A stretch of DNA of 64,000 bases from Halomonas sp. KAO (GTDB lineage Bacteria > Pseudomonadota > Gammaproteobacteria > Pseudomonadales > Halomonadaceae): the NCBI RefSeq assembly GCF_015595025.1, contig NZ_JADNRL010000019.1, positions 868,805-932,804 on the forward strand, in the 5' to 3' direction. Both the position numbers and the translations under genes were made by a program. Position 1 is the stretch's first letter. Every line of letters starts with the position of its first letter. Of this stretch, positions 30,622-32,346 are shown piece by piece. The notes below the pieces were generated by a model, which was not told the origin of the DNA, searched no databases, and was given only the letters and a program-made list of their open reading frames with translations.

Positions 30622-30750
30622 ATGGCGGGACATGACGAGAATTTCAGCGACAACAGCGGCCTGCTGTCCATCATCATGGGCCTGATCGTGCTGGTGGCCA
30701 TGAGCTGCCTGCCGGCCACCATCGGCTGGTACCAGCTGTTCGCCGGCTGA
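30622..30750 (+). CDS. Small single-pass membrane protein, 42 residues
   Basis: An AAGGAG ribosome binding site at 30610-30615 precedes this short gene, which is preceded by a candidate -10. The product has a polar acidic N-terminus (MAGHDENFSDNSG), one hydrophobic helix of about 20 residues with a Cys (about residues 14-36) and ends WYQLFAG. I do not recognise a family. Its place between folM and the aroG leaders may be coincidental. The good ribosome binding site and clear membrane helix make it more likely than not a real protein. Confidence 0.6.
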   Translation: MAGHDENFSDNSGLLSIIMGLIVLVAMSCLPATIGWYQLFAG

Positions 30751-30777: not shown

Positions 30778-30806
30778 TTGTCAGCCCTGCCGCGATGCGG
30801 CACGAT
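30778..30806 (+). promoter_or_regulatory. Candidate promoter of the aroG leader transcript
   Basis: TTGTCA (30778-30783, 5 of 6 to consensus) is followed after 17 nt by CACGAT (30801-30806), a weak -10; GATAAA at 30804-30809 is a better hexamer but 20 nt away. Transcription would start near 30813, just before the first leader ribosome binding site. Confidence 0.35.
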
Positions 30807-30830
30807 AAAGCGACTGCACAGGAGAGACCC

Positions 30831-30959
30831 ATGACCGCATCCGCCACCCACCGCTTTCACCATCACGCCGCCAGCGAGCGTGTGGTATCGCTGTGCGCGG
30901 CTACGGGCGGTTTCTGGTATGGCTATTTTATGACCGGTGTGCCGGCGGCCATGTCCTGA
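30831..30959 (+). CDS. Aromatic-rich leader peptide 1 of aroG, 42 residues
   Basis: The ATG follows AGGAGAGACCC, a strong ribosome binding site. The peptide begins MTAS, has a His run at residues 10-12 and a cluster Gly-Gly-Phe-Trp-Tyr-Gly-Tyr-Phe at residues 26-33. Five aromatic residues within six codons, including Trp, are far above what a random 42-codon ORF would show. It lies upstream of DAHP synthase, the enzyme that Phe, Tyr and Trp feedback-control. A perfect hairpin follows 51 nt after the stop codon. These are the hallmarks of a leader peptide for attenuation; the call is inference from sequence. Confidence 0.72.
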   Translation: MTASATHRFHHHAASERVVSLCAATGGFWYGYFMTGVPAAMS

Positions 30960-31010
30960 ACGCGCAAGAGACGACATCGCCGGAGGCACACCCCCAGGGC
31001 CGCCTCCACC

Positions 31011-31050
31011 AGAACCCCCGGACGGCAGCCCCGCCCGGGGGTTCTGCGTT
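31011..31050 (+). terminator. Candidate attenuator hairpin of aroG leader 1
   Basis: An 11-bp perfect stem AGAACCCCCGG/CCGGGGGTTCT (31011-31021 with 31035-31045) closes a 13-nt loop and is followed by GCGTTCC, a poor T run. An upstream 6-bp stem GGAGGC/GCCTCC (30982-30987 with 31002-31007) precedes it. The control codons of leader 1 contain TTCTGGT (30912-30918), complementary to ACCAGAA (31008-31014) at the base of the terminator, giving a possible competing structure. Confidence 0.6.
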
Positions 31051-31115
31051 CCAGGCTACCCGACACCATCACGGCCACGTCGCCCGACAGCATAGTAGAC
31101 ATCGAGGAGAGAACC

Positions 31116-31274
31116 ATGACCGCATCCATCGCCATCCGCCAGACCCTCTGCTGCGTGGGCTATTACGGCTACTGGCGATTTAGCGAGCTGCGGTCGGCTC
31201 ACTCCGCCACATCCGACCGTAGCGAGATCGGTGGCATCCGACAAACACGATGTATGACCGCTACCCGGAGTTGA
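31116..31274 (+). CDS. Aromatic-rich leader peptide 2 of aroG, 52 residues
   Basis: The ATG follows GAGGAGAGAACC. The ribosome binding site and first codons (MTAS) are nearly identical to those of leader 1, so the two probably arose by duplication. The cluster Gly-Tyr-Tyr-Gly-Tyr-Trp-Arg-Phe lies at residues 15-22. The rest is polar and low-complexity-like, with no known domain. The stop codon ends 7 nt before the aroG ATG, inside the aroG ribosome binding region, so aroG translation may be coupled to it. An 11-bp hairpin begins 6 nt after the last aromatic codon. Confidence 0.65.
   Translation: MTASIAIRQTLCCVGYYGYWRFSELRSAHSATSDRSEIGGIRQTRCMTATRS
31187..31223 (+). promoter_or_regulatory. 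Hairpin inside leader 2, upstream of the aroG start
   Basis: GCTGCGGTCGG (31187-31197) pairs with CCGACCGTAGC (31213-31223), with one G-U pair. A ribosome stalled on the Tyr/Trp/Phe codons at 31161-31181 would cover its 5' arm. Its loop contains CTCCG (31202-31206), complementary to CGGAG (31266-31270) of the aroG ribosome binding site. There is no T run after it. Confidence 0.45.
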
Positions 31275-31281
31275 TGACGCC

Positions 31282-32346
31282 ATGAATGCGACCCTTGCCG
31301 CCGCCCCCCTGAACGATTCCCTGCGCCCCGCCGTCCATCCCGCTCGAGTGTTGCCCACGCCCGGCGATCTGTGCCGTGAGCTACCGCTCGCCGCTGGTCT
31401 GAAGCGCCGCGTCGAGAGCCAGCGCCGAGCCGTGCACAATATTCTTGCCGGCCACGATGATCGCCTGCTGGTGGTGGTCGGCCCCTGCTCCATCCACGAC
31501 CCCCGGGCAGCCCTGGAGTATGCCCAGCGGCTGGCAGAACTATCGGCACGAGTGGAAGACCGCCTGCTGCTTGTGATGCGGGTCTATGTCGAGAAGCCGC
31601 GCACTACCGTGGGATGGAAGGGGCTGGCCTATGACCCCGGCCTCGACGGCACGGGGGACATGGCTCGCGGCCTCGAGGTCTCGCGCCGGCTGATGCACGA
31701 TGTGACGGCACTGGGCCTGCCGGTGGCCACCGAACTTCTGCAGCCGATGCTGGCGCCCTATCTGGAGGATCTGCTCTCCTGGGTGGCGATCGGCGCCCGT
31801 ACCACCGAGTCCCAGCTGCACCGTGAGCTGGCCAGTGGTCTCGCGGCGGCGGTGGGCTTCAAGAATGCCACCGGCGGTGATATCGGCGTGGCCCTGGATG
31901 CCATGCGTGCCGCGGCTCATCCCCATAGCCATTTCGGCATGGATAGCGAGGGGCGGCCGGTGATCCGCGATACCGCGGGCAATCCTTACACCCAGCTGGT
32001 GCTGCGCGGCGGTCACGGCGAGCCCAACTACCAGGCGCACCATGTTCAGGCGGCTCGTCGCGCCCTGGAAGAGGGTGGCCTCTCCCCGCGGCTGATGGTG
32101 GACTGCAGCCACGCCAACGCCCGCAAGGATCATCGCCGCCAGAGCGAGGTGCTGCTCGACGTGCTGGCACAGCGCCAGGCCGGCGAGACGGCGATCACCG
32201 GAGTGATGCTGGAGAGTCATCTTCACGAGGGCAAGCAGGCGCTGGAGCCGGGGCGCTTACGCCACGGGGTGTCGGTCACCGACGCCTGCATTGGCTGGGA
32301 GACCACCGAGCATCTGCTGCTCTCCGCCGCCGAGCGCTTGAGGTAG
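31282..32346 (+). CDS. aroG: 3-deoxy-7-phosphoheptulonate (DAHP) synthase, class I
   Basis: This enzyme condenses phosphoenolpyruvate and erythrose 4-phosphate in the first step of the shikimate pathway. The 354-residue product has VGPCSIHDP (Cys69 as likely metal ligand), the IGARTTESQLHRELASG block and MVDCSHANA, and ends with a DACIGWE motif as in E. coli AroF/G/H. Which aromatic amino acid inhibits it cannot be read safely by eye. It is preceded by two aromatic-rich leader ORFs, suggesting control by charged tRNA supply. GGAG at 31267-31270 is the ribosome binding site. Repeat copy D follows. Confidence 0.95.
   Translation: MNATLAAAPLNDSLRPAVHPARVLPTPGDLCRELPLAAGLKRRVESQRRAVHNILAGHDDRLLVVVGPCSIHDPRAALEYAQRLAELSARVEDRLLLVMRVYVEKPRTTVGWKGLAYDPGLDGTGDMARGLEVSRRLMHDVTALGLPVATELLQPMLAPYLEDLLSWVAIGARTTESQLHRELASGLAAAVGFKNATGGDIGVALDAMRAAAHPHSHFGMDSEGRPVIRDTAGNPYTQLVLRGGHGEPNYQAHHVQAARRALEEGGLSPRLMVDCSHANARKDHRRQSEVLLDVLAQRQAGETAITGVMLESHLHEGKQALEPGRLRHGVSVTDACIGWETTEHLLLSAAERLR

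Follow-up and report, generated by a model that had tools for sequence, protein, structure and literature searches.

The gene under control at this locus is aroG (31282..32346, + strand), which encodes a DAHP synthase. Its product scores 495.6 bits against the NCBIfam model PRK12755 (cut-off 343) and 443.2 bits against the aroFGH model (cut-off 173.2), and its closest named relatives, among the best 80 of 559 confirmed matches, are Halomonas. Two mini-ORFs precede the gene on the same strand of the window, i.e., the whole 64-kb stretch of DNA that was analysed. Leader peptide 1 (30831..30959) has 42 codons, an AGGAG ribosome site at 30820 and, in its translation, the aromatic run F-W-Y-G-Y-F (30912-30929). 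Leader peptide 2 (31116..31274) has 52 codons, AGGAG at 31105 and the run Y-Y-G-Y-W-R-F; the ribosome site of aroG itself, GGAG (31267-31270, + strand), lies inside it. The leader region is bordered by aroG on one side and, upstream, by the gene of a short-chain dehydrogenase resembling dihydromonapterin reductase. The original prediction of two aromatic-rich mini-ORFs with ribosome sites before aroG proved to be real, and the case for it is stronger than first put forward. Under a rule requiring an ATG start, at most 70 codons, a ribosome site with at least four matching bases and at least five Phe, Trp or Tyr within seven residues, they are the sole mini-ORFs in the window on both strands. 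The idea that they arose by chance was rejected, since only these two occur in the window and they are conserved across families.

A promoter-like element, TTGTCA-17 nt-CACGAT (30778..30806, + strand), is found 53 to 24 nt before the start of leader 1. The interval first proposed for the whole arrangement, 30831-31281, is correct but omits this element. In a sigma-70 scan of the window, the element scores under the threshold. Pairs resembling TTGYCA-17-CASGAT are present in many of the printed loci, often at the same place, and a pair scoring at least 8 occurs within 100 nt before leader 1 in 95 of the 144 loci with leader 1, a count made with no shuffled control. As a similar pair stands before leader 1 in many relatives, both leaders would lie on one aroG transcript. 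An ORF of 42 codons (30622-30750, + strand; MAGHDENFSDNSGLLSIIMGLIVLVAMSCLPATIGWYQLFAG) also lies in the interval from the dehydrogenase gene to leader 1. Small hydrophobic proteins like it are encoded at the same place in the halomonad loci L026, L049 and L095.

Regions upstream of this DAHP synthase were sampled at the genus, family, order and class levels. The family sample comprised 120 regions from 275 genomes and covered 23 of 24 genera, with none of genus g15. The leader count took 149 of 176 loci, reduced to 148 when L024 was dropped as too short; the 27 loci skipped were a paralogue (L002) and 26 loci fetched later, most of them from genomes already included. Genomes G150, G164, G175, G208, G216, G240, G251 and G265 are not part of the count. 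The rules for calling the two leaders and the choice of the aroG start were defined by us, and L164 and L170 were counted as having leader 2 with one mismatch.

On this basis, leader 1 was present in 144 and leader 2 in 126 of the 148 evaluable regions, and both were present in 126. Several of the 18 leader 1 loci without a recognisable leader 2 have another short aromatic ORF in its place. The loci without leader 1 (L120, L121, L175 and L176) belong to DAHP synthases of at most 50.2% identity, and the paralogous DAHP synthase L002 in the window's own genome (50% identity) is likewise without such a leader. Both leaders are conserved in Halomonadaceae, in a Pseudomonas family and in part of a third family. 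In the order sample, the DAHP synthase scores show a gap, with E values of at most 1e-127 in the window's family and in families f21 and f43, and of 1e-118 or worse elsewhere. The class search added L174 (1e-129, with leader 1) as well as two genomes of small size that have no leader 1 (1e-124 to 1e-126). Family f21 is probably Pseudomonas, since named Pseudomonas contigs encode identical leader peptides. The alignment of relatives suggested together with the original prediction was carried out: the frames and aromatic runs are kept, and the N-terminal parts drift. Loss of the runs or frames was looked for in close relatives and was not seen, as the 68 genus loci with leader 2 all have leader 1.

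In named genomes (best 80 of 559 confirmed matches, overlapping the unnamed set and not independent of it), leader 1 was found in 79 of 80 loci and leader 2 in 72 of 80. All 13 named Pseudomonas loci have both leaders, and the eight named loci without leader 2 are six Salinicola, MFB021 and L203. In L239, L240 and L242-L246 (Salinicola, MFB021), and also in L099, L102 and L103, leader 1 lies near aroG with no leader 2 motif. These loci are natural single-leader forms.

The end of leader 1 and the spacer behind it contain a series of segments able to pair with one another. Segment 1, GGTGTGCC (30936..30943, + strand), falls within the GVP codons and pairs with 30985-30992. The latter belongs to segment 2 (30982..30992, + strand), where GGAGGC (helix 2:3) overlaps GGCACACC (helix 1:2). 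Segment 3 (30997..31007, + strand) holds GGGCCGCC (helix 3:4) overlapping GCCTCC (helix 2:3), and segment 4 (31024-31031, + strand) is part of a terminator-like hairpin (31010..31046, + strand) whose arms, 31010-31025 and 31031-31046, are 94% complementary. Between lineages, the two sides of helix 1:2 are replaced together, as in GGTGTGCC/GGCACACC, GGCGTGCC/GGCACGCC and GGCACGCCT/GGGCGTGCC, and elsewhere GGCACGCC with GGCGTGCC and GGGGTGCC with GGCACCCC. The C-terminal codons of leader 1 (GVPxAMS in the window's clade) thus appear to be held because their RNA pairs with the segment after the stop codon. Helix 3:4, in which the spacer pairs with the terminator on its loop side, takes the forms GGGTTGCC/GGCAACCC, CGGGCTGCC/GGCAGCCCG and CGTGCTGCC/GGCAGCACG in relatives. 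The window's own 3:4 has one mismatch in eight by eye, its longest unbroken run being GCCG/CGGC (four pairs).

Pairing was compared with that of shuffled spacers at the 5% level, at most 2 of 40 shuffled spacers reaching the observed pairing. Helix 1:2 stood above the shuffles in 48 of 143 loci and helix 3:4 in 67, with about seven expected for each; helix 2:3 did so in just 14 (about seven expected). Masking segment 1 in silico, in a model with the terminator loop made and its 3' arm not yet, increased 2:3 pairing in 131 of 143 loci. Under the same masking, 3:4 pairing went down, as predicted, in 74 loci, went up in 23 and stayed flat in 46. The first three aromatic codons of the window's leader 1 start 24, 21 and 18 nt before segment 1, and the last two 12 and 9 nt before it. 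In this model, the pattern fits a five-segment switch in which a ribosome stalled at the upstream aromatic codons would leave segment 1 free and a ribosome at the stop codon would cover it. The fit is poor in several Pseudomonas loci, where the model of the Rfam family P15, considered below, pairs the control codons themselves. A hairpin follows leader 1 in 143 of 144 loci, with a mean of 4.4 T in the next 12 nt. The T tract is clear in many relatives and poor in the window, and the terminator scan of the window gave no match at this hairpin. As judged from these comparisons, leader 1 is a well-supported candidate for a leader-peptide transcription attenuator.

Initial Rfam and consensus scans of the window returned nothing, and P15 (RF00627) emerged via the Pseudomonas loci. 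All nine Pseudomonas-type loci compared match this family with 87-138 bits (cut-off 70). Indeed, leader 1 of Pseudomonas together with its terminator is P15, and it is collinear with leader 1 of the window. The window itself reaches 18.6 bits at 30924-31041 (E 0.14), under the cut-off of 70 and beside families at chance level. Other loci scored 70.6 bits (L158, family f43), 69.8 bits (the outgroup L174) and 28.8 bits (the halomonad L113). Among 14 other halomonad loci, 12 gave a sense match and two (L114 and L103) had none listed; the scores extend from 82.3 bits (L115, the sole one over the cut-off) over 65, 55, 53, 48 and 45 down to 25.5 (L032). Since these loci serve as intermediates and the position in front of aroG is identical, leader 1 of the window can be considered a homologue of P15, though not a member of the Rfam family. 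The locus L174, a class-level outgroup, has a P15-like leader 1 with a strong terminator before its DAHP synthase. As it lies outside the order and scores just under the cut-off, P15 is probably not confined to Pseudomonas. When P15 was searched genome-wide and independently of the gene, a single place over the cut-off came up in 55 of the 59 genomes taken from the Pseudomonas-type genus, and none of 14 control genomes had any. Thirty of the 55 loci were read, and all 30 have this DAHP synthase 244-274 nt downstream on the same strand. In the available excerpt of an earlier study, P15 was guessed from synteny to be a riboswitch (Livny 2008; PMC2527527), and no paper calling it a leader-peptide attenuator was found in open-access text.

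The core of leader 2 is of another kind. The near-invariant UGGCGAUUUA (31173..31182, + strand) reads in frame Trp(UGG)-Arg(CGA)-Phe(UUU)-A. An exact copy is present in 103 of the 120 family loci (paralogue L002 not counted), and the wobble positions are fixed too. CGA is a rare codon in the aroG genes of these loci, accounting for 168 of 3712 Arg codons, and Phe is encoded there by UUU in a minority of cases (52 of 323). Seven nt after the motif, still within the frame of leader 2, an H-type pseudoknot begins. Stem 1 (31190..31220, + strand) pairs GCGGTCGG (31190-31197) with CCGACCGT (31213-31220). Stem 2 (31206..31235, + strand) is formed by GCCAC (31206-31210), which belongs to the loop of stem 1, and GTGGC (31231-31235). 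Alignment A1 was built from 105 motif-bearing loci, with six of other spacing set aside (L101, L104, L111, L113, L117 and L118) and identical rows merged to give 88. In these distinct rows, 99.0% of the cells of stem 1 are paired, with changes on both sides in 4 of 8 pairs; the corresponding values are 99.8% and 3 of 5 for stem 2, and 99.3% and 7 of 13 for the whole knot. None of 500 shuffles reached this level, and slid partners were paired in 24-54% of cells.

The loci of other spacing come from three genera (L101 and L104; L111, L113 and L117; L118) and form knots of unrelated sequence, with stems of 9 and 6-7 pairs (G-U allowed), which none of 40 shuffles reached. In 11 Pseudomonas loci of the longer type, stem 2 is full and stem 1 has 6-7 of its 8 pairs; for one of them, L139, taken alone in a generic knot search, 6 of 40 shuffles reached the observed value. 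The 30 P15 loci all have UGGCGAUUUA in an open frame between P15 and aroG, with knot stems of 7/8 and 5/5 pairs. Ten loci were searched among the Pseudomonas loci with a short leader 2 and the f43 locus L157; they keep UGGCGAUUUA and have no such knot, the L146 knot being reached by 7 of 40 shuffles and the other nine loci giving none. Going by this pattern, the conserved part of leader 2 is RNA more than peptide, and leader 2 is not a copy of leader 1. Attenuation by aromatic codons had been proposed for both leaders. For leader 1, the idea is well supported by the compensatory helices, the hairpin with a T tract in many relatives and the homology with P15, whereas leader 2, with its pseudoknot RNA, its UGGCGAUUUA and a frame running to the aroG start, differs from a second copy of the same device.

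The leader 2 part of the window has no Rfam match. A search for further copies in the genome found UGGCGAUUUA three times (a control pattern once), and the covariance model went below E 1 only at aroG. The motif is fixed even where the pseudoknot is absent, and no conserved pairing partner for it was found in the leader. Complements of its GC part are in excess, with ATCGCC present in 76 of the 126 loci (mean of 30 and maximum of 69 for permuted k-mers); such complements are located between the two leaders in 29 of the 68 genus loci, in 1 of 37 other halomonads and in 1 of 21 f21 and f43 loci. For the AUUUA part, there was no excess of complements in the leader. A conserved contact between the leaders through UGGCGAUUUA was considered and found unsupported, as the complements sit in differing places.

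Relative to the start of aroG, the stop codon of leader 2 lies between -5 and +12 nt in 67 of the 68 genus loci and in 20 of 37 other halomonads. In the 21 loci of f21 and f43, 26-48 nt are left between the two, and several of these loci have a hairpin in the gap. Three loci of Pseudomonas type (L148, L150 and L162) have a GC-rich hairpin between the leader 2 stop and the aroG ribosome site, for instance GGCGGCAACGCCGCC followed by GAGGA in L162. Such a hairpin may shorten the gap for reinitiation. In 89 of 126 loci, the frame of leader 2 is uninterrupted as far as 10 nt before aroG; for the other frames, this holds in 52 and 8. In all 126, UGGCGAUUUA follows a start codon in an open frame (the strength of the ribosome site was not thresholded), with at least three aromatic residues among the 13 that end at the motif's own W and F. 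The adjacency of the stop codon and the open frame point to translation of leader 2 to its end and, within the genus, to coupling with aroG. The window scan found no terminator-like site between leader 2 and aroG; the same scan was negative for leader 1 too.

Sequence comparison supports the two frames, the aromatic codons, helices 1:2 and 3:4 of leader 1, its hairpin, the leader 2 knot, and the adjacency of leader 2 and aroG. We consider it likely, with a probability of roughly 0.7, that the 5' leader of the aroG mRNA consists of two ribosome-sensing stations in series. At the first station, a ribosome slowed at the Phe, Trp or Tyr codons of leader 1 would favour one set of helices, letting RNA polymerase read through; a ribosome reaching the stop codon would lead to the alternative helices and the terminator. 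The second station would be reached solely by transcripts that have passed this terminator. There, the ribosome would encounter the aromatic codons, UGG-CGA-UUU, the H-type pseudoknot and then the aroG start. Its position most likely decides whether the knot folds, which would set the rate of aroG translation by way of coupling or clearing of the aroG start site. The role of tRNA charging as the signal is our inference, as are the direction in which leader 2 acts and the step under its control.

Several other explanations have to be weighed, most of which concern leader 2. Its region could be a ligand- or protein-binding RNA, a riboswitch-like knot with a conserved 5' strand for which the frame is secondary. 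H-type pseudoknots are a common riboswitch fold, and the fixed wobble positions of UGGCGAUUUA, its AUUUA part devoid of excess complements and the lack of an Rfam match in this part would all agree with such a role. It is nonetheless unlikely, given that the motif sits in an aromatic-bearing open frame in 126 of 126 loci, most often open to aroG, that L094 has UAU for UUU and so keeps an aromatic residue, and that Pseudomonas loci with a short leader 2 keep the frame without the knot. Similarly, leader 2 could act as a translational attenuator of the ermC type, in which the aroG ribosome site would be masked by alternative pairing until a ribosome stalls within leader 2. The proximity of the end of leader 2 to aroG is compatible with this, as are the hairpins that several Pseudomonas loci have ahead of the aroG ribosome site. 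Against it, the predicted mean exposure of the site in 96 loci, based on nested folds only, was 0.35 with the knot region taken out as folded, 0.36 with its 3' strands free, 0.335 with these strands shuffled and 0.30 when the entire stretch was folded with no ribosome on it. The 21 f21 and f43 loci showed no consistent shift either. Sequestration of the Shine-Dalgarno sequence by leader 2 was thus tested and is unsupported, which makes this explanation rather improbable. Hence, our reading goes no further than a pseudoknot that is gated by the ribosome and acts on the translation of aroG.

Programmed frameshifting stimulated by the leader 2 pseudoknot would account for stem 1 beginning 7 nt after UUUA, which is the spacing of frameshift pseudoknots. 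CGA-UUU-A, however, is no X-XXY-YYZ slippery site in the leader 2 frame, and the two other frames reach aroG without a stop in no more than 52 and 8 of 126 loci, so that frameshifting seems very improbable. As for leader 1, P15 might be a small RNA acting in trans, with an incidental frame, or might combine both roles, as reported for S. meliloti trpL. Rfam files P15 as a gene, and a leader peptide needed in trans has been described, according to the part of the source available (PMC7298713). The conservation of both the aromatic codons and the alternative helices argues against a trans-acting role, as does the position of all 30 P15 loci read before this DAHP synthase in a gene-independent search, and we regard this role as quite unlikely, though a second role in trans might exist. 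The two ribosome-sensing stations are retained as the main reading. A more far-reaching version of it is offered tentatively, as we would sooner doubt than accept it: leader 2 might be the first case where a ribosome translating a leader peptide gates an H-type pseudoknot within the frame being read, UGG-CGA-UUU might be a fixed slow-decoding site directly ahead of the knot, and aromatic tRNA charging might control one gene twice, at transcription (leader 1/P15) and at translation (leader 2).

The trp, pheA and his attenuators of enterobacteria consist of a short ORF with codons for the end product, alternative helices and a terminator before a biosynthetic gene. Leader 1 resembles them in each of these features. 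It differs from them in its mixture of Phe, Tyr and Trp codons, in the second leader downstream and in the halomonad helices, which appear to form five segments. The filing of P15 as a gene in Rfam likewise differs from the reading of leader 1 as a leader attenuator. In Salmonella mgtCBR, as in the present case, two short ORFs are arranged in series on one leader mRNA; the signals there are ATP and proline-tRNA, the gene is another one, and the available part of the source mentions no in-frame pseudoknot (PMC3641672). According to the same excerpt, tandem leader control as such is already known from mgtCBR. A Phe-Tyr-Phe leader peptide precedes the DAHP synthase gene aroF of Corynebacterium glutamicum, which, in the excerpt available, has one leader and belongs to another phylum (PMC4046766). 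The DAHP synthase gene aroF of Shewanella was predicted to be preceded by an attenuator that senses Tyr-tRNA, and the accessible portion of that paper mentions neither tandem leaders nor a pseudoknot (PMC2659441).

The statement that no tandem leader pair had been described for a DAHP synthase agrees with the open-access literature, in which none was found, but the RNA of the first leader had already been filed as P15. Leader 1 looks like a classical device, for which this function was not stated in the open-access text found. The new part, to go by sequence, is leader 2, a second, different and conserved leader with a pseudoknot in frame. With the present reading, P15, an orphan RNA filed as a gene, gains a testable function. 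Moreover, two leader elements precede the gene for the first enzyme of aromatic synthesis in Pseudomonas and halomonads, and the leader 2 knot with UGGCGAUUUA is a conserved RNA that has no Rfam match. Pseudomonas and halomonads are both used as production hosts. If the leaders act in series, they would represent a natural controller with two stages, which could be targeted to increase the output of aromatic compounds.

The two leaders also share a direct repeat of 35 nt with 83% identity (30820-30854 and 31105-31139), which spans both ribosome sites and start codons. A recent duplication of one leader, as suggested by this repeat, was rejected, since both leaders occur in three families and the core of leader 2 differs. 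The repeat at the leader starts perhaps reflects gene conversion and not the origin of the pair.
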